In this document: one piece after another, positions 1 through 5,495 of the stretch
Layout of the letters: every line of letters begins with the position of its first letter
Numbering within the stretch: position 1 is the stretch's first letter
Source of the DNA: Acidimicrobiaceae bacterium
GTDB lineage: Bacteria; Actinomycetota; Acidimicrobiia; Acidimicrobiales; Aldehydirespiratoraceae
Reading direction: 5' to 3'
Assembly: GCA_009840695.1 (NCBI GenBank)
Contig: VXNG01000045.1
Location: 1 to 5,495 of the forward strand
Length of the DNA: 5,495 nucleotides
The notes under the pieces: model-generated
The model's database searches: none
Seen by the model: only the letters and a program-made list of their open reading frames with translations
What the model was told of the DNA's origin: nothing
Program-made: the position numbers and the translations under genes

Positions 1-2
1 AG

Positions 3-140
3 GTGCGCCACGCCATCGACCTCGGCACCCACACCCTGTTCGTGGGCGAGCTGGTGGACGGCGACATCCAAGTCGACGAGGCCCGCTCCGCCTCTATGAG
101 CGACACCCGCATGAAGTACGGAGGCGTCAAGCGCCACTAG
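3..140 (+). CDS. Flavin reductase family protein, C-terminal end (5' end outside window)
   Basis: The last 45 residues and TAG stop of a gene that begins before the window. The sequence DLGTHTLFVGELVDG, followed by a DTRMKYGG segment, fits the C-terminal part of flavin reductase-like (FMN-binding split barrel) proteins. Such enzymes use NAD(P)H to reduce flavin for a partner monooxygenase. An HpaB-type oxygenase begins at 5283, so this could be its reductase component (HpaC role). That pairing is inferred from context, because the flavin- and NADH-binding parts are not visible. The last five codons and first base of the stop (GVKRH) lie inside the 16-bp direct repeat that recurs at 2175 and 3938, so the 3' end looks like an integration target that was regenerated on insertion. 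No specific hpaC assignment is made because only the C-terminus is seen. Confidence 0.75.
   Translation: MRHAIDLGTHTLFVGELVDGDIQVDEARSASMSDTRMKYGGVKRH
118..138 (+). repeat. Direct repeat copy 1 (putative attachment site, left)
   Basis: Contains GGCGTCAAGCGCCACT (123-138) and is identical to copy 2 over 21 bp (118-138 versus 2170-2190). It forms the last codons of the flavin reductase gene and is followed by AG, giving a TAG stop. The core has short dyad arms, GGCG and CGCC, around TCAAG. The identity is seen directly; the role as an attL-like site is inferred from its position at a gene 3' end and its recurrence at the other boundaries. Confidence 0.85.
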
Positions 141-399
141 TCCCTGGGCCCAACTAGCGGCGGCTTCAGACTGTTGCCTGCTCGCTAAGTCTCCAGAATG
201 TAAAGGAATGCCGCGAAACGGTGACTTGGCTGGCTGTTGCGTGCTCGCTAAGTCCCCAGAATGTAAAGGAATGCCGCTTACGGGCCGAAAATGTAAACGC
301 TCAAGGCCACGGACGCTGACCAGGATCCCGTCACCGCCCGGGAAGTGTGGGTCTCCGTCTCGAACCGCCGTTGCCTCCGTCGGCTCGCTCCGCGCTTGA
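141..399. other. Leader region upstream of the kinase gene; no convincing gene
   Basis: 259 bp between the reductase stop and the kinase start. It holds an 8-bp palindrome TGGGCCCA (145-152), the two-copy 44-bp repeat (171-277) and a third short AATGTAAA motif (290-297). Part of it is noticeably more A+T-rich than its surroundings. A 63-codon open frame (208-399) starts inside the repeat but has no ribosome binding site or family resemblance and is not called. No clear promoter was recognised. Confidence 0.6.
171..277 (+). repeat. Two tandem 44-bp imperfect direct repeats, period 63 bp
   Basis: Positions 171-214 and 234-277 match at 42 of 44 positions; the differences are at 178/241 and 192/255. 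They are separated by 19 bp of unrelated sequence. Both copies contain CCAGAATGTAAAGGAATGCC. A third partial copy of the inner motif, AATGTAAA, lies at 290-297. Multiple internal repeats of this sort occur at the ends of some insertion sequences (for example the IS21 family) and in clustered operator sites. Nothing here decides between the two. No transposase gene accompanies them. Confidence 0.9.
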
Positions 400-1359
400 A
401 TGGTCGTGATGGCTGAGTCCGAGGCCTTGTCCACAGCGGTCGACGCTGAACGCTACCCCGTGTTTGATGTCACTGACTGGGCGGTCGTGCGGCGGGAGCA
501 ACTCGGCACGAAGCCCAAGCGGTGGATCCTCGCTCCGGACGGCAATCGCTGGCTCATGAAGTACACCACCGACAATCAGCGAAGTGACGGTACCAGTTAC
601 CGGAAGGGGGACGACTGGTCCGAGCGCGTCGCCAACGGCGTCGCTGGACGGCTCGGCATCCCAGCGGCTCGTACGGAACTCGCTTTGGATCGGGCTGCCG
701 AAGCTCCGGGCTACGGCATCATCAGCAAGTCAGTTCTTGCCCCGCATAGCGGCGATCCGCCCCAGAGTCCAGAGGAATTGGTCCATGGCAACCAACTCGT
801 GGACGTGGAGTTGGTCGGTCGCGAGCGGATTGGACATACCGTCGAGGCCATCCGGCAGGCGCTTGACGACATCTCGGCACCCAGCGGCATTGATGATCAC
901 CTCACGGCATGGGACGTGTTCGTCGGCTATTTGCTGTTGGACGCTGTGGTCGGCAACACCGACCGGCATGAGGAGAACTGGGCAGTGATCGATCGAGCCG
1001 GTGTCCGCCGTCTCGCGGCCACCTTCGACCATGCCTCGTGCTTAGGATTCCTGCTCGACGACGAGCGGCGCATGCGACACCTGCACACCCGCGACCGCTA
1101 CGACACGCCCGAAGCGTGGGCCGACCGAGCGAAGTCGAAGTTCGAGGGTCGGCCGCATCCAGTCGTGGCCGCGATGCGTGCCTTGGACTTAACCGATCAG
1201 ACCGTCCGCCAGCGTTGGGTCGGCCGATGCGAAGACGTGGACCGCCTCGTCGAACCCATCTCGATGGTCCCTGAGGACCGTATGTCACCCTTGGCGCGAC
1301 AGTTCGCTGAACGGGTGATCCGGCGGAATTGCCAATGGCTGCTCGACAAGTTCCGCTAG
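400..1359 (+). CDS. HipA-like Ser/Thr protein kinase (stand-alone, HipT/CtkA-like)
   Basis: A 319-residue protein with the HipA kinase fold signatures in order. LGTKPKRW (35-42) lies where HipA proteins have the ATP-contacting loop. WLMKY supplies the likely ATP-binding Lys54, and DDWSERVA supplies the helix-C Glu75. LVHGNQL is at 128-134. The catalytic loop VVGNTDRHEENW (183-194) has the likely catalytic Asp188 and metal-binding Asn193. TFDHASCLG (208-216) has Asp210 in the DFG-like position. HipA-family kinases phosphorylate translation factors such as glutamyl- or tryptophanyl-tRNA synthetase; the target here is unknown. It lacks the N-terminal HipA subdomain that binds HipB, and no HipB-like helix-turn-helix gene is present. 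The following HIRAN gene starts 35 bp downstream and probably shares the transcript. The start is uncertain: an in-frame TGA immediately precedes ATG 400, ATG 409 is an alternative, and neither has a clear ribosome binding site. All key kinase residues are intact, so it is probably active. Confidence 0.85.
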   Translation: MVVMAESEALSTAVDAERYPVFDVTDWAVVRREQLGTKPKRWILAPDGNRWLMKYTTDNQRSDGTSYRKGDDWSERVANGVAGRLGIPAARTELALDRAAEAPGYGIISKSVLAPHSGDPPQSPEELVHGNQLVDVELVGRERIGHTVEAIRQALDDISAPSGIDDHLTAWDVFVGYLLLDAVVGNTDRHEENWAVIDRAGVRRLAATFDHASCLGFLLDDERRMRHLHTRDRYDTPEAWADRAKSKFEGRPHPVVAAMRALDLTDQTVRQRWVGRCEDVDRLVEPISMVPEDRMSPLARQFAERVIRRNCQWLLDKFR

Positions 1360-1394
1360 GTTCGATGTCGTACCCCGCAACTACGGTGACGCAC

Positions 1395-2138
1395 ATGACC
1401 GAGCCCGGCGAAGACCGCCTCTATGCCGCTTGGCGCAACCCAGAGGGTCTGATCCGTCCTGTGGGAGTTCTGACGCGCCTGCGAACGGCCGAGGGGGAAT
1501 CGTACCGGTTCGCCTACCTGAAGGCAGCCGAGCAGTTCGACGGCTTCGTCTGCCTACCGGGCCTGCCCGAGTTGCACAGCGTTTACGAGAGCGAGTACCT
1601 CTTCCCGGTTTTTCGGAATCGTCTGATGCCGCGGAGTCGTCCCGACTATGGCCATTACGTCTCGGAGTTGAATCTTGAGGTGGATACGGACCCCTTCGAG
1701 GTCTTGATCCGTAGTGAGGGCCGTAGGGCGACTGACCGAGTGGAGGTGTTCGCCCATCCCGAGTGCACTCCTGAGGGCACCCTGACGACGCTGTTCTTCG
1801 TTCGGGGCATCCGCCATCTCGAGGGTGCCGCGGCCGCGGTCGATGACGTGCAGCCGGGCGAAGTGCTGGAACTCGTGGACGAGCCGGACAACCAGGTGAA
1901 CCGTCGGGCCATCCTTGTCAGCACTCGCACGGGGCGGCGACTGGGCTGGACGCCCGATTGCCTGGTCAACATGCTTCATGAACTGCGCGACTTGAATAGC
2001 CCCGTCGAGGTCACGGCGGAGCACGTCAACCCCGAGACGTCGCCACCGCATATGCGTCTGCTGTGCAAGCTGCGGGCGCCGTGGCCCGAGGGCTACGAGC
2101 CCCTTACAGGCCCCGAGTACCGGCCCATCGCCGCCTAA
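1395..2138 (+). CDS. HIRAN domain protein with HipA N-subdomain-like region; probable kinase partner
   Basis: A 247-residue protein with two recognisable parts. Residues about 8-78 follow the pattern of the HipA N-terminal subdomain: W..N...VG.LT.L..G..YRF.Y, then LPGLPEL, then YLFPVFRNRL. Residues about 133-212 match a HIRAN domain: FFVRGIRHLEG, then PGEVLELVDEPDN..NRRAILV, then GRRLGWTPDCLVNML. HIRAN domains are known as DNA-end-binding modules in HLTF/Rad5-type and bacterial proteins. The C-terminus (RLLCKLRAPWPEGYEPL) is characteristic of this bacterial family as I recall it. It probably pairs with the upstream HipA-like kinase, as HipS pairs with HipT, which would make it the likely regulator or antitoxin; this is inference. 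ATG 1395 has GGTGA five bases upstream. ATG 1365 (10 codons earlier, AGG at 1358-1360) is an in-frame alternative. It ends 31 bp before repeat copy 2. Confidence 0.75.
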   Translation: MTEPGEDRLYAAWRNPEGLIRPVGVLTRLRTAEGESYRFAYLKAAEQFDGFVCLPGLPELHSVYESEYLFPVFRNRLMPRSRPDYGHYVSELNLEVDTDPFEVLIRSEGRRATDRVEVFAHPECTPEGTLTTLFFVRGIRHLEGAAAAVDDVQPGEVLELVDEPDNQVNRRAILVSTRTGRRLGWTPDCLVNMLHELRDLNSPVEVTAEHVNPETSPPHMRLLCKLRAPWPEGYEPLTGPEYRPIAA

Positions 2139-2169
2139 CAAATCAAACGGGACTCATTACCGGCGAGTG

Positions 2170-2190
2170 ACGGAGGCGTCAAGCGCCACT
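2170..2190 (+). repeat. Direct repeat copy 2 (putative internal attachment site)
   Basis: Identical to copy 1 over 21 bp (2170-2190) and to copy 3 over 18 bp (2175-2192 versus 3938-3955). It sits alone between two convergent genes and is followed by GA, so it still reads GGVKRH-stop, a leftover of the reductase 3' end that serves no gene here. This marks it as a junction between two inserted units rather than a chance match. Confidence 0.85.
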
Positions 2191-2202
2191 GACAAGATTT
2201 CC

Positions 2203-2235
2203 CCGACGGTCGGTTCGACTGCCCGGACCACGGGC
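2203..2235 (-). terminator. Possible stem-loop terminator after the DUF4173 gene
   Basis: Directly after the minus-strand stop (2236-2238), the arms GCCCG (2221-2225) and CGGGC (2231-2235) form a perfect 5-bp stem with a 5-nt loop. A second dyad, CCGAC/GTCGG, lies at 2203-2213. Neither is followed by a long U tract, which is common in high-GC actinomycetes but keeps this tentative. Confidence 0.35.
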
Positions 2236-3813
2236 TCAACTGCAATCTCCCGTACCCGCTAGACTGCGCAGCGTCTCGAGGTTGTCGTCCACGGCGTGGC
2301 GCGCCCTGCTCTCGGACCAGTTGAAGCTGCGCCAGTCGGCAGGTTGTTCAGGGCCCCACTGGTGCAGGAGCCGGCTCGCCACCGAGCACTGTGCCTCATC
2401 CGGCAGCTCGTCGAGGCGGGCAATCAGAACGGGTGCCGCGTCACTCCCGAGCGAGCCGAGGTGCTCCACGTCCACCCCGCCCAACTGCTCGATCCGGTCG
2501 AGATTGTGACGGGCGACCAGGCCGGCAGGATTGATGAACTGCAGCGCACCCACCAGCACGAAAGCCGTGACGAGGGCGCCGATGGCGAAACGGTCGCGCC
2601 GGCCGCTGAACACGGTCACCCCGAACCAGACCACGATCACCGTCAACCACACGAGCACCGCGGTAACCACGACACGCGGCTCCGTGAGGCCGTAGGCGGT
2701 CTGGTAGGCCTGCACACGCTGAAGCGCCGAGGCGACAATGACCATCAGAAGAACTAGGTGGACGCCTGCGAGTGCGCCGAACACCGCCCGTGCCTTCGGA
2801 CTGCGCTCACCGAGCAGGCTGTGGGCGGCGAGGAGCCAGGGAATGGCCAACGCCACCGCGGCGACGAGCTGGAAGAAACCGGCACGGGCGTAGGCGGCGT
2901 ACGTGAGACCCGGAGTGACCTCGACCCAGGAACTTCCTCCGAACAGGTAACGGAACTGCACGATCACGAAGCCCAGGAACAGGAGATCCACCAGGCCTAG
3001 AGCGGTGGCCACCTCGGCGGTCCCAAGCGTCGGGCGGGCGAGCTTGAGGCGTCGAATCCCCTCGAGCCTCGTGCCCGACAAGGCGCCGACCAGGTAGCCG
3101 CAGACGAGCCAGGACAGGACGGCGATGACCACCAGATGCGAACCGAAGTTTTCCAGGTTGATCCTCGCCAAGTCTCCGACAATCGTGGCGAACACCTTGT
3201 CGGCCGAGATGAAGAGCGCCCCGAAGACGACCAGCGGCACGAGCGCGAGGAGCATTCCGGCGAGGGCAGTCCGGACCACGGCGCGTGCGGTCCGTCTGGG
3301 GGTGTCGACTCCGAGGTGACCCCAGTGCCGGCGGTTCATCAGTCGAGCACATCCGGACGCCGAGTGGAGCCCGGCTCCCGCCACGGCCTCGAAGATGTCG
3401 GTGATGCCGGACCTCATGGTCCACGCGCGCCCCGGGTTGAGAACCGGTAGCGAGAACGCGGTGAGCGTCGCGACGAGGGTTCCGAAACGGAGAATGTCGG
3501 AGCCCCGCCACAGCAGAGCGGCACTGCAGAGGAGTCCCACTCCAATCCACGACGACGCCTCCCGGTTGAGGGGCGATTCACTGCGCCGGGTCACGATCCA
3601 GACGGAGGCGGCGAGACCCATGAACAACAGGAAGAAGTTGAGGCCGGGGCCCGCCGGCGCCCGCAGGAGTTGGTCTCCGGCGAACCCCATTGCGATGCCG
3701 GCCACCAGGATGGCGACAACAGGCAGGGAGCGGTCGGGCTGGACGTTCGGAGGTGACGTCGGCTCCGGTGATTCGGGCCCTTGCCGTTGCGACTGCAAAG
3801 AATTCTGTGTCAT
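2236..3813 (-). CDS. DUF4173-family multi-pass membrane protein
   Basis: A 525-residue integral membrane protein. A polar, proline-rich N-terminal tail (1-29) precedes roughly eleven hydrophobic segments, near residues 31-50, 58-75, 88-123 (two), 184-203, 226-247, 268-290, 312-335, 343-365, 380-402 and 408-428. FGALFISADKVF (198-209), RYLFGG (288-293), TYAAYARAGFFQLV (304-317) and RVQAYQTAYGLTEPR (366-380), followed by INPAGLVARHNLDR, match the DUF4173 (DUF4153-related) pattern. A soluble C-terminal tail (about 440-525) includes LGSDAAPVLIARL and ends with a WRSFNWS..RA segment typical of the family. The molecular function is unknown, and no enzyme motif is visible. ATG 3813 is preferred because GGAGAG (3824-3819) lies five bases upstream; a TTG six codons earlier is less likely. 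It is the only gene in unit 2, convergent with the HIRAN gene. Confidence 0.85.
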   Translation of the reverse strand: MTQNSLQSQRQGPESPEPTSPPNVQPDRSLPVVAILVAGIAMGFAGDQLLRAPAGPGLNFFLLFMGLAASVWIVTRRSESPLNREASSWIGVGLLCSAALLWRGSDILRFGTLVATLTAFSLPVLNPGRAWTMRSGITDIFEAVAGAGLHSASGCARLMNRRHWGHLGVDTPRRTARAVVRTALAGMLLALVPLVVFGALFISADKVFATIVGDLARINLENFGSHLVVIAVLSWLVCGYLVGALSGTRLEGIRRLKLARPTLGTAEVATALGLVDLLFLGFVIVQFRYLFGGSSWVEVTPGLTYAAYARAGFFQLVAAVALAIPWLLAAHSLLGERSPKARAVFGALAGVHLVLLMVIVASALQRVQAYQTAYGLTEPRVVVTAVLVWLTVIVVWFGVTVFSGRRDRFAIGALVTAFVLVGALQFINPAGLVARHNLDRIEQLGGVDVEHLGSLGSDAAPVLIARLDELPDEAQCSVASRLLHQWGPEQPADWRSFNWSESRARHAVDDNLETLRSLAGTGDCS

Positions 3814-3839
3814 GAAGTCTCTCCACAACAACCGCCCGA

Positions 3840-3859
3840 CCTATAGGACCCTATACAGG
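3840..3859 (-). promoter_or_regulatory. A+T-rich palindromic region upstream of the DUF4173 gene, possible promoter or operator
   Basis: The perfect palindrome CCTATAGG (3840-3847) is followed ten bases on by CCTATACAGG (3850-3859). On the minus strand this gives two TATAGG hexamers that could act as -10 boxes 27-42 bp before the start codon. I see no good -35 box at the right spacing. The symmetry could equally be a repressor site. This is the only A+T-rich patch in the 124 bp upstream of the gene. Confidence 0.3.
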
Positions 3860-3937
3860 AGATGGAGGCCTTCTGCTGCGGCCAGTAGCGGCGGAGCGAT
3901 CGGTGCCCGAGACCCTCCGGCAGCCGTGGTTCGAAGG

Positions 3938-3955
3938 GGCGTCAAGCGCCACTGA
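3938..3955 (+). repeat. Direct repeat copy 3 (putative attachment site, right)
   Basis: GGCGTCAAGCGCCACT (3938-3953) plus GA, identical to copy 2 over 18 bp. It overlaps the 3' end of the MFS gene: the MFS stop is 3942-3944 and its last codons are read from the complementary strand of the core. On the plus strand it still reads GVKRH-stop. In the attachment-site model this is the attR-like boundary next to the ancestral chromosome. Confidence 0.85.
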
Positions 3956-5177
3956 GTTCGCCGCCGGCGGCGCCCAAGCGGCTCCGGTTGGCGGCGAGTA
4001 GGCCGCAGAGCGCGCACGTCGCGGTGACGGCCCCCACCGTGACCAGGGCGGTGCGGCTGCCGAAGGCGTCCACCATCCAGCCCAGGATCGGGCCGCCGAC
4101 GGCGCGGGCCCCCACGAAGACGACGCCGTACGCCGCGGACACCCGGCCCTGCAGGCGGGGATCGGCCGCGGTCTGCACCGATCCGTTGGACAGGCTCAGG
4201 AACCCGCCGCCGAAGGTGCCTACCACAAAGATGACCGCTACCCCGGCGAGGAGGTGGTCCACAGCAGCCAGCGGGACCATGGCCGCGCTGAACACGATCA
4301 GCAGGATCGCAAGATTGCGTGATCCCTCCAGCTTCGATGCTGCCATCATCACCGAGCCGATCAGGCTGCCGACCGCCATGACCTGGGCCAGGATCGCGAA
4401 CGTGCCCGCCCCGCTCTCCAGCTGCTTGTCGGCGATCACTGGAAGCAGCACCGCCAGATTCCAGCCGAACAGGGTGAAGGAGCACAGCAGGGCCATCGGT
4501 ATGGTCACTGCCGGGGTACGCAGCAGGTAGCCGAGCACCCGGCCCCCGGCGGCTCGGGATGCTTCCGACGAGGTGACGGTGGTGGTCACCACCCGGAGCA
4601 CCAGCATGGCCGCGAGCAGTGACGTCACTCCGTTCACTGCGAAGCAGGCCCATGCCGCGGACAGGCTCAGGAAGAGCCAAGCTGCGCCGCTTCCCAGGAA
4701 CCGACCTATCGACATCACTGAGGTGTGCAGCCGGGCCGCCCGGTCGATCCCGTCGGCGAGGACGACATCACGCACGAAGGCTCGCCGCAGCGGCGTGTCG
4801 ATGGCGCCGATCACGCCCAGCACTGCGACGGCTCCGAACAGCACTGCCAGCGGCAGGTCTTCTCCCATCGCTAGTGCGAGGAGTGCCAGCGCGCTAGCGA
4901 CGACGGACTTCGAGCCCTGAGTGGAGGCCAGCAGCCGGCGCCGGTCCATCCGGTCGGCCAGTGTCCCCGCCAGCGGCGCGAGAACGACGGCCGAGCCCGA
5001 CCGGATCGCAACGGTGAGCCCGACTACGAATGCGCTGCCGGTGATCTCATACACCAGCCACACCTCGGCGAGGTGGTGGGCCCACATCCCGGCGCCGTGC
5101 AGGAACTGGGCTCCGGCGTAGCGGCGGAAGTTGGGGTTGCTCAGCGTGCCGGCCAGCCGGCCCAGTGCGAGCTTCAC
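3942..5177 (-). CDS. MFS transporter (MFS_3 / EntS-like exporter family)
   Basis: A 411-residue major facilitator protein of about 12 membrane segments, the usual length for the family. The N-terminus NPNFRRYAGAQFLHGAGMW and the loop 2-3 motif A, GTLADRMDRRRLL (71-83), fit the enterobactin-exporter-like MFS_3 group. The second half has DPRLQGRVSAAYGVVFVGARAVGGPILGW, another hallmark of that group. The substrate cannot be read from sequence. Lying between the reductase end and divergent hpaB, it may move an aromatic substrate or product of the monooxygenase pathway; that is inference. GTG 5177 is chosen because GAGGA (5186-5182) lies four bases upstream and the translated product begins just before the conserved N-terminus. 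The upstream open frame to 5372 runs antisense through hpaB and is not expected to be translated. Its last codons and stop lie within direct repeat copy 3, so it would overlap the reductase gene by 14 nt in a repeat-excised arrangement. Confidence 0.88.
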   Translation of the reverse strand: MKLALGRLAGTLSNPNFRRYAGAQFLHGAGMWAHHLAEVWLVYEITGSAFVVGLTVAIRSGSAVVLAPLAGTLADRMDRRRLLASTQGSKSVVASALALLALAMGEDLPLAVLFGAVAVLGVIGAIDTPLRRAFVRDVVLADGIDRAARLHTSVMSIGRFLGSGAAWLFLSLSAAWACFAVNGVTSLLAAMLVLRVVTTTVTSSEASRAAGGRVLGYLLRTPAVTIPMALLCSFTLFGWNLAVLLPVIADKQLESGAGTFAILAQVMAVGSLIGSVMMAASKLEGSRNLAILLIVFSAAMVPLAAVDHLLAGVAVIFVVGTFGGGFLSLSNGSVQTAADPRLQGRVSAAYGVVFVGARAVGGPILGWMVDAFGSRTALVTVGAVTATCALCGLLAANRSRLGAAGGELSGA

Positions 5178-5197
5178 GCGATCCTCACATCGACAGT

Positions 5198-5226
5198 TTG
5201 ACAGCGCAGGCAGGTTGTCAGACAAT
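5198..5226 (+). promoter_or_regulatory. Probable sigma-70-type promoter of hpaB
   Basis: A perfect -35 box TTGACA (5198-5203), a 17-bp spacer and a -10 box GACAAT (5221-5226, four of six consensus bases). Transcription would begin near 5233, about 50 bp before the hpaB start. The adjacent repressor-like palindrome covers the -10 box. Confidence 0.6.
5215..5225. promoter_or_regulatory. GntR (FadR/FCD-type) operator-like palindrome
   Basis: TTGTCAGACAA is a perfect inverted repeat around a central A. It fits the TNGTNNNACNA consensus known for FadR-subfamily GntR regulators, which often control aromatic and organic-acid catabolism in response to the substrate. It overlaps the -10 box of the hpaB promoter, so bound protein would block transcription. 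It also lies 38 bp from the MFS start and could control both divergent genes. The regulator gene is not in the window. Confidence 0.6.
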
Positions 5227-5273
5227 CTGCTACTAGGGCGGGGCCTGCGCGGCGCGGCTTTCGTCGTTCTCCT

Positions 5274-5278
5274 GGAGG
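5274..5278 (+). promoter_or_regulatory. Ribosome binding site that fixes the hpaB start
   Basis: GGAGG four bases before ATG 5283. A nearer ATG at 5279 is in another frame and directly abuts the site, so 5283 is the start, in agreement with the conserved protein N-terminus. Confidence 0.7.
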
Positions 5279-5282
5279 ATGG

Positions 5283-5495
5283 ATGCGCACTGGGGACAGC
5301 TACGTCGAGTCGCTGCGAGACGGGCGCAACGTGATCCTCGACGGCGATCCGGTCGACGACATCACCTCCCATCCGGCCTTCGCCGCCGGCGTGCGCACCG
5401 TGGCCCGTCTCTACGACTTCGCGGCCGATCCGGCCAACCGCGAGCTCATGACCTACGAGTCGCCCACCGACGGGCGCCCGGTGAACCTGAGCTGG
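5283..5495 (+). CDS. hpaB: 4-hydroxyphenylacetate 3-monooxygenase oxygenase component, N-terminal 71 residues (3' end outside window)
   Basis: The visible N-terminus, with MRTGDSYVESLRDGRNVILDG at its start, then TSHPAFAAGVRTVARLYDFAADP and YESPTDGRPVNLSW, is characteristic of the HpaB family. This is the FADH2-dependent oxygenase of about 480-520 residues that hydroxylates 4-hydroxyphenylacetate or related phenols at the ortho position. It needs reduced flavin from a separate reductase, and the flavin reductase end at 3-140 is a plausible partner. The catalytic and flavin-binding residues are beyond the window, so related substrates (phenol, chlorophenols) cannot be excluded. It is divergent from the MFS gene across a 105-bp regulatory gap with a GntR-type operator. 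Confidence 0.85.
   Translation, partial: MRTGDSYVESLRDGRNVILDGDPVDDITSHPAFAAGVRTVARLYDFAADPANRELMTYESPTDGRPVNLSW

Follow-up and report, generated by a model that had tools for sequence, protein, structure and literature searches.

By what route are genes gained and lost at a defence hotspot that holds no integrase? The question is raised by a 5,495-nucleotide stretch of an Acidimicrobiaceae genome (contig VXNG01000045.1, positions 1 to 5,495; hereafter the window), in which two small units of genes lie between a flavin reductase gene, of which the window holds the 3′ end, and a gene for a transporter of the major facilitator superfamily (MFS), bounded by three direct copies of one short sequence. 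What is repeated at the insertion boundaries is the 3′ end of the reductase gene, which all three copies match. Judged from sequence comparison, the locus appears to be an accessory hotspot with mostly defence-like contents, and that it is a polymorphic accessory or defence hotspot whose repeats are reductase-tail copies can be regarded as close to certain.

The core of the repeat is the 16-mer GGCGTCAAGCGCCACT, which occurs three times in the window and always on the forward strand:

118-138, forward strand: core copy 1 (16-mer at 123-138), inside the reductase coding end
2170-2192, forward strand: core copy 2 (16-mer at 2175-2190), the 23-bp reductase tail that separates units 1 and 2
3938-3955, forward strand: core copy 3 (16-mer at 3938-3953), the reductase tail plus GA, with the TCA at 3942-3944 being the MFS stop codon
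3-140, forward strand: 3′ end of the flavin reductase (HpaC-like) gene, stop TAG at 138-140, 89-99% nucleotide identity to the gene end of relatives

The same three matches are returned when up to three mismatches are allowed, compared with 0.11 expected from dinucleotide shuffles, and three matches were reached in 0 of 200 shuffles. Copies 1 and 2 are identical over 21 bp (118-138 and 2170-2190) and copies 2 and 3 over 18 bp (2175-2192 and 3938-3955). A first-pass annotation, made from the letters alone, had reported three same-orientation copies at these positions with these match lengths, and both observations were reproduced, the former far above the shuffle expectation. It had also identified copy 1 as the end of the coding sequence of a flavin reductase; the 45-residue piece in the window matches PF01613 weakly (E 0.009), and the full-length orthologue in locus L010 establishes the assignment (PF01613, E 8e-33). 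Copies 2 and 3 encode GVKRH-TGA, in agreement with the earlier reading of GVKRH followed by a stop, and copy 1 ends in TAG. In the loci of many relatives, the reductase end together with its TGA agrees exactly with copy 2 over 23 bp. Copy 3 doubles as the 3′ end and stop of the MFS gene, which is encoded on the other strand. A structured RNA was rejected, as a search of the window against Rfam returned no family at E up to 1. Comparison of the window with plasmids gave no near match.

The relatives that place these repeats in context were gathered by an MFS protein scan, which returned 35 loci; L001-L014 are close relatives (82-98% identity), and L015-L035 (23-35% identity) are distant and were excluded as alleles. 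Fourteen alleles were compared, namely the window, L012, L014, G001-G003, G004a and G005-G011, after three others had been dropped: G004b (a second G004 contig with reductase and HipA at the contig end), G004c (a reductase paralogue) and G012/L013 (reductase and MFS on separate contigs). The G004a contig holds just the last 42 reductase residues. The relatives are draft metagenome-assembled genomes, which, judging by the isolate names, may be of sponge origin, and L014 and L012, from bins labelled Gemmatimonadetes and Acidobacteria, are probably misbinned.

Two of the 14 alleles (G003 and G010) are empty. Here the two flanking genes are convergent and share a single core as their overlap, the MFS stop sitting inside the core and the reductase stop at its end. 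The remaining 12 are filled with contents that differ between alleles, in inserts from 1.56 kb (G005) to about 10.1 kb (G002):

G005, G006, G008: an open reading frame (ORF) without Pfam or PADLOC match and a glyoxalase-like gene
G009, L012: Fic protein
L014: Fic and DUF4153
Window: HipA-HIRAN and DUF4153
G011: Fic-glyoxalase-HipA-HIRAN
G001: Fic-HipA-HIRAN-methyltransferase
G007: Fic, degraded HipA/HIRAN and PDC-S01 ATPase
G002: HipA-HIRAN-HsdM-HsdS-AriAB-like-HsdR
G004a: HipA-HIRAN-glyoxalase-MFS 3′ duplicate-HsdM-HsdS-AlbA-HsdR

Defence-related matches among these alleles comprise PDC-M03, AriAB-like, type I restriction-modification, PDC-S01 and Fic/PDC-S04, so that a single slot is occupied in some alleles by the HipA-HIRAN/PDC-M03 pair and in others by different candidate defence genes; the glyoxalase-like gene is typified by the G011 copy, which matches PF00903. 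The 3.8 kb between the outer repeats of the window, whose presence in all relatives the first-pass annotation had named as evidence against integration, is not common to them all. In the MFS tree G002 is sister to G003; its 10.1-kb insert is flanked by two exact cores, and its MFS flank is 97.6-99.6% identical to that of G003 over the first kb. The upstream side of G002 is rearranged relative to relatives (a 2.5-kb indel) and uninformative. The MFS tree was rooted at its midpoint only, and the ancestral state may have been either empty or filled. When 51 genomes of the family were searched, 40 proved to have the reductase, with the MFS gene downstream of it only in the close group (among the downstream stretches fetched, some of which were ended by contig ends). 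Relatives of HipA occur in 7 of these 51 genomes, of Fic in 11 and of DUF4153 in 1.

With at most one mismatch the core was found in nine of 12 close genomes, a set that did not include L012 and L014, and it occurs once per genome except in G002 (both insert ends) and G004 (three, all reductase ends on different contigs). Across the 51 genomes the same threshold gave 30 places, 18 of which are reductase ends or the G002 insert end. The other 12 (11 with one mismatch, and one exact, in G042) look like chance, because a reversed control pattern gives 11 matches. A dispersed or interspersed repeat was rejected, the core being confined in the close genomes to reductase ends and the distal boundary of the G002 insert; the scatter over many unrelated sites that the first-pass annotation had named as refuting its reading was not found in these 12 genomes. 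Viral contigs held 17 exact core matches, which extend at most 1 bp beyond the 16-mer and look like chance. A phage or plasmid attP carrying the core was likewise rejected, given viral matches without real extension and no plasmid match to the window.

Comparison of filled with empty alleles matches an attB/attL/attR-like repeat geometry, with the unoccupied site present in G003 and G010. Direct repeats stand at both insert ends in G002 (two exact) and in the window (three), and are degenerate in L014, L012 and G004a. Thus 5 of the 12 filled alleles have an MFS-side copy, exact in the window and G002, with two mismatches in L014 and with three in L012 and G004a; a further core copy, with two mismatches, lies in the duplicated MFS end of the latter. 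In the other seven (G001, G005-G009 and G011) no MFS-side copy was found and the MFS genes end differently, and four of them (G001, G007, G009 and G011) also hold Fic or HipA-HIRAN modules. On the MFS side, homology to the empty site sets in at the core edge for G002 and for copy 3 of the window; for L014 it does so 3 bp within the core, and for copy 2 of the window 5 bp before it. On the reductase side homology stops 0-4 bp past the core. Between the window and L014, homology is lost abruptly at the core, and the right ends of the inserts are heterogeneous. The minimum tail that keeps both genes whole, from MFS stop to reductase stop, is about 14 bp. In L014 the N terminus of DUF4153 (3315-3574 in window orientation) is replaced by unrelated sequence beside the MFS-side core.

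The remaining features of the window are as follows:

171-297, forward strand: three A[AT]TGTAAA motifs (197, 260 and 290; 63/30-bp spacing), the former Fic upstream region, now upstream of HipA-HIRAN
324-371, forward strand: Fic gene (P503) remnant, from its 3′ end; 39 of 48 nucleotides equal the end of P503 in L014, E 8e-7
400-1359, forward strand: HipA-like kinase, hipIN-like first gene; PF07804 at E 5.8e-6, under the gathering score; PADLOC candidate PDC-M03A, E 4.5e-74
1395-2138, forward strand: HIRAN-domain partner, HipN-like; PF08797; PDC-M03B, E 7.3e-78
2236-3813, reverse strand: DUF4153 membrane protein (unit 2); PF13687, E 2.9e-72
3942-5177, reverse strand: MFS transporter, the right flank of the hotspot; PF05977/PF07690; 83-94% nucleotide identity in relatives
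5283-5495, forward strand: 5′ part of hpaB (4-hydroxyphenylacetate 3-monooxygenase oxygenase); PF11794, E 7.1e-20

The region from copy 1 to HipA is 83% identical to G004a over 230 nt, and the left junction, in which the core is followed by the motif region and then by Fic or HipA, is common to the repeat-bearing alleles of the window, L014, L012 and G004a and is also present in G009, G001, G011 and G007, which have no MFS-side copy. The A[AT]TGTAAA triplet, in one orientation and with 62-63/30-bp spacing, is found in the window, L014, L012, G011 and G004a, upstream of the Fic gene or of the position it once held, and may serve as a promoter, an operator or an arm-type site. L001-L011, counted on both strands, hold nine occurrences of the motif, as many as G001, G007, G009 and G011 together have at this position. 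The motifs are retained in the window and G004a despite loss of the Fic ORF, with one in G004b and none in G002. The Fic gene is whole in relatives and fragmentary in unit 1 (48 nt of its 3′ end). Given this fragment and the motif triplet, unit 1 resembles a Fic-HipA-HIRAN block from which the greater part of the Fic gene has disappeared. The earlier picture of two units as two clean integrations is consequently not borne out, as the left junction of unit 1 is homologous to other alleles and carries Fic debris.

The order of a HipA-like kinase gene followed by a HIRAN protein gene in unit 1 is that of hipIN and of PDC-M03. The hipIN kinase-HIRAN toxin-antitoxin modules consist of a HipA-like kinase gene and then a HIRAN-domain gene (PMC8262856), and the pair here resembles them in this two-gene order, with both genes also matching PDC-M03A/B. 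No literature mention was found of 'PDC-M03' as a name. The DUF4153 gene of unit 2, without a match in PADLOC, has 88% nucleotide identity to that of L014 at the same junction and 87% to one in G006 at another locus.

Signs of exchange are present beside the slot. Among the window, G001 and G010, the first 450 bp of the MFS gene hold 42-45 differences versus 14-26 in the next 500 bp (Fisher p 0.016 to 1.4e-5; for G001 and G010, 43/450 versus 14/500, p = 1.4e-5), in a 450/500 split that was picked after seeing the data; homologous exchange is visible here. The MFS gene of G005 looks like a mosaic of two lineages. In G004a (L067, contig C69 of G004), a duplicated MFS 3′ end of 141 residues flanks the HsdMSR insert, the same geometry with a long repeat, which resembles a single-crossover integration. 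The window HipA is 88% identical to that of G011, 87% to that of G004 and 67% to that of G001, although the MFS flank is much closer to the window in G001 (93% at the nucleotide level) than in G011 (83%); the HipA identities are incongruent with the flanks.

How, then, would the scars arise? The explanation preferred here, to which we give about an even chance as a whole, is of a strain-variable, defence-like slot filled by one-sided homology with an illegitimate join on the right. Incoming DNA fragments would carry an arm of the reductase side, recombining homologously within the reductase on the left and joining illegitimately inside the tail of the recipient reductase on the right. As the coding ends overlap, only joins that keep at least about 14 bp of tail would leave both genes whole, and a short direct repeat would mark each such join. 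The first event in the window would have brought in DUF4153, leaving copy 3 as its scar, and the Fic-HipA-HIRAN block, which at some time would have lost most of the Fic gene, would have entered on the reductase side in the second, leaving copy 2. Alleles without repeats could be explained by double crossovers through both flanks. In favour of this scheme count the empty and differently filled alleles, the want of any PF00589 or PF00239 match on the hotspot contigs of 11 genomes, the left junction common to alleles with and without an MFS-side copy, the heterogeneous right ends, the exchange visible in the MFS gene, the long MFS duplication of G004a and the incongruent HipA identities.

Precedents exist for the parts of this scheme. 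The cDHS1/2 hotspots of Pseudomonas aeruginosa have conserved flanking core genes, variable defence content and no obvious single mobile-element group; their authors call these hotspots enigmatic, ask how they are built, and suggest lateral transfer by transduction and homologous recombination via the flanks with no mobile-element scar (PMC10250203). The present locus is alike in its conserved flanking genes and, across 14 alleles, in variable content rich in defence genes (G005, G006 and G008 having only the unnamed ORF and the glyoxalase-like gene). Unlike cDHS1/2 as described there, its flanking genes overlap when empty, its inserts measure only 1.6-10.1 kb, and some boundaries are marked by short direct-repeat scars of a flanking gene. 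For the orphan immunity-gene arrays of the type VI secretion system (T6SS) of Vibrio cholerae, successive displacement from one conserved anchor side is described, and a mechanism akin to homology-facilitated illegitimate recombination is proposed, with no evidence for an integrase (PMC5361080). One anchor side, successive insertion beside it and displacement of older modules are shared with the hotspot, which differs in that a 16-23 bp gene tail is retained, rather than immunity genes, and that the modules are defence or accessory genes. The preferred mechanism is akin to the T6SS proposal and in line with flank-mediated exchange in P. aeruginosa.

Several observations weigh against one-sided homology with an illegitimate join. 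The repeat boundaries of four junctions, taken from three alleles (the window, G002 and L014), cluster within about 10 bp, whereas random illegitimate joins should often leave longer tails; and copy 2 guards no gene overlap, so that selection leaves its core-sized tail unexplained. Both the tight clustering and copy 2 exceed what selection predicts and favour a core-specific process. The MFS-side flanks of G002 and G003 are equally similar near the junction and farther out, so no imported tract is visible there; the excess of divergence near the slot is absent between G002, G003 and G010; and G005 differs less, not more, from G006 and G008 beside the slot (p 0.07 and 0.025). For the window, the proposed order of events comes from position only.

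The serious rival is core-specific, site-specific recombination, with the reductase tail as attB, a tyrosine recombinase acting in trans (or since lost), and integrase-less cassettes inserting in tandem. This is a real but lesser possibility, and it would account well for the exact repeats that bound the G002 insert and the three in the window, for the clustered boundaries, including that of a copy needed by no gene, for the single core of the empty site, and for the abrupt loss of homology at the core between the window and L014, whose MFS flanks are 99.5% identical over 214 nt and 99% over 273 nt. Tyrosine recombinases are moreover present elsewhere in all 12 genomes searched. Yet none of the 57 PF00589 matches in the 11 hotspot genomes (68 with G012 included), and not the one PF00239 match, lies on a hotspot contig, in a search that left out the genomes of the window, L012 and L014; the scanned insert ORFs belong to other families or are unnamed, with no integrase among them. 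The core was found with no other element, the viral-contig matches included; the right ends of the units have no visible common arm-like sequence, and one lies at a truncated gene in L014; and the MFS-side copy is absent from 7 of the 12 filled alleles. The first-pass proposal of repeated site-specific integration at a gene 3′ end accordingly stands as to the polymorphic site, the att-like geometry and the protein-coding gene end, but not as to mechanism, for which these same absences count against it. The island PAISt of Streptomyces turgidiscabies integrates at the 3′ end of a protein-coding gene, and three direct repeats, two of them flanking and one internal, delimit its modules (PMC4057263); it shows that modular three-repeat islands at gene 3′ ends exist with their own recombinase; unlike that large conjugative island with its tyrosine recombinase intSt, the hotspot has units of about 2 kb and no recombinase was found. 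A bolder version, in which the units are very small (1.8-10 kb) integrase-less defence-gene cassettes shuffled in tandem by a trans-acting recombinase, an integron-like array at a protein-coding gene overlap, seems somewhat doubtful. The locus is not an integron cassette array with an intI integrase and a long palindromic attC for every cassette: no tyrosine-recombinase match lies on the hotspot contigs of the 11 genomes, and the repeats are coding tails of 16-23 bp.

The locus could instead have been filled ancestrally (Fic-HipA-HIRAN-glyoxalase), with the empty alleles being deletions between short repeats. Reductase-Fic adjacency in the early-branching G011 and G007 (under the midpoint root) suggests an old filled state, glyoxalase-like remnants were seen by eye in several alleles, and direct repeats can promote deletion; but this by itself yields neither copy 2 nor the MFS-side copy, and the contents differ by gene family beyond what loss would give (HsdMSR, methyltransferase, DUF4153 and PDC-S01), making it improbable as the main explanation. 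Least credible, and very improbable, is an Xer/dif-type mobile module with host XerCD acting at the core. Nine of the 12 genomes have two strong tyrosine-recombinase matches (E below 1e-40), taken as XerC and XerD, but the putative dif, CCGCCGGAAATNNACATTATGTAAAGTAA, agrees with the attachment region at 7 of 18 positions at best in ungapped comparison, which disfavours such a site. The core of this putative dif occurs once each in 7 of the 11 genomes searched (L135-L141), compared with 1 of 11 for a reversed control; L140 and L141 differ from the rest at a single position.

Defence hotspots, hipIN pairs and 3′-end insertions are already known, and a narrow literature search turned up no hotspot that lies where two convergent genes overlap and in which gene-tail scars keep a record of the insertions. 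The question addressed is that of gene gain and loss in integrase-less defence hotspots. Two genes overlap when the slot is empty, so that insertions would be tolerated only with a duplicated tail and events recorded as countable scars, which make the mechanism testable by boundary comparison across many strains.

Module genes also occur outside the slot. G010 has a HipA-HIRAN pair 3.4 kb upstream of its reductase (L010, reverse-complement 4338-6197), at a second insertion site that is unoccupied in G003; a mobile HipA-HIRAN with its own repeats was rejected, the best exact repeat between the flanks of this pair being 9 bp. A 63% relative of the Fic protein lies about 4 kb from a tyrosine integrase on contigs L128 (G010:C26) and L129 (G005:C49), where no core was found within three mismatches. 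Because two stretches of 10.3 and 8.8 kb are 100% identical between these two genomes, L128/L129 represent a plasmid or a misbinned contig.

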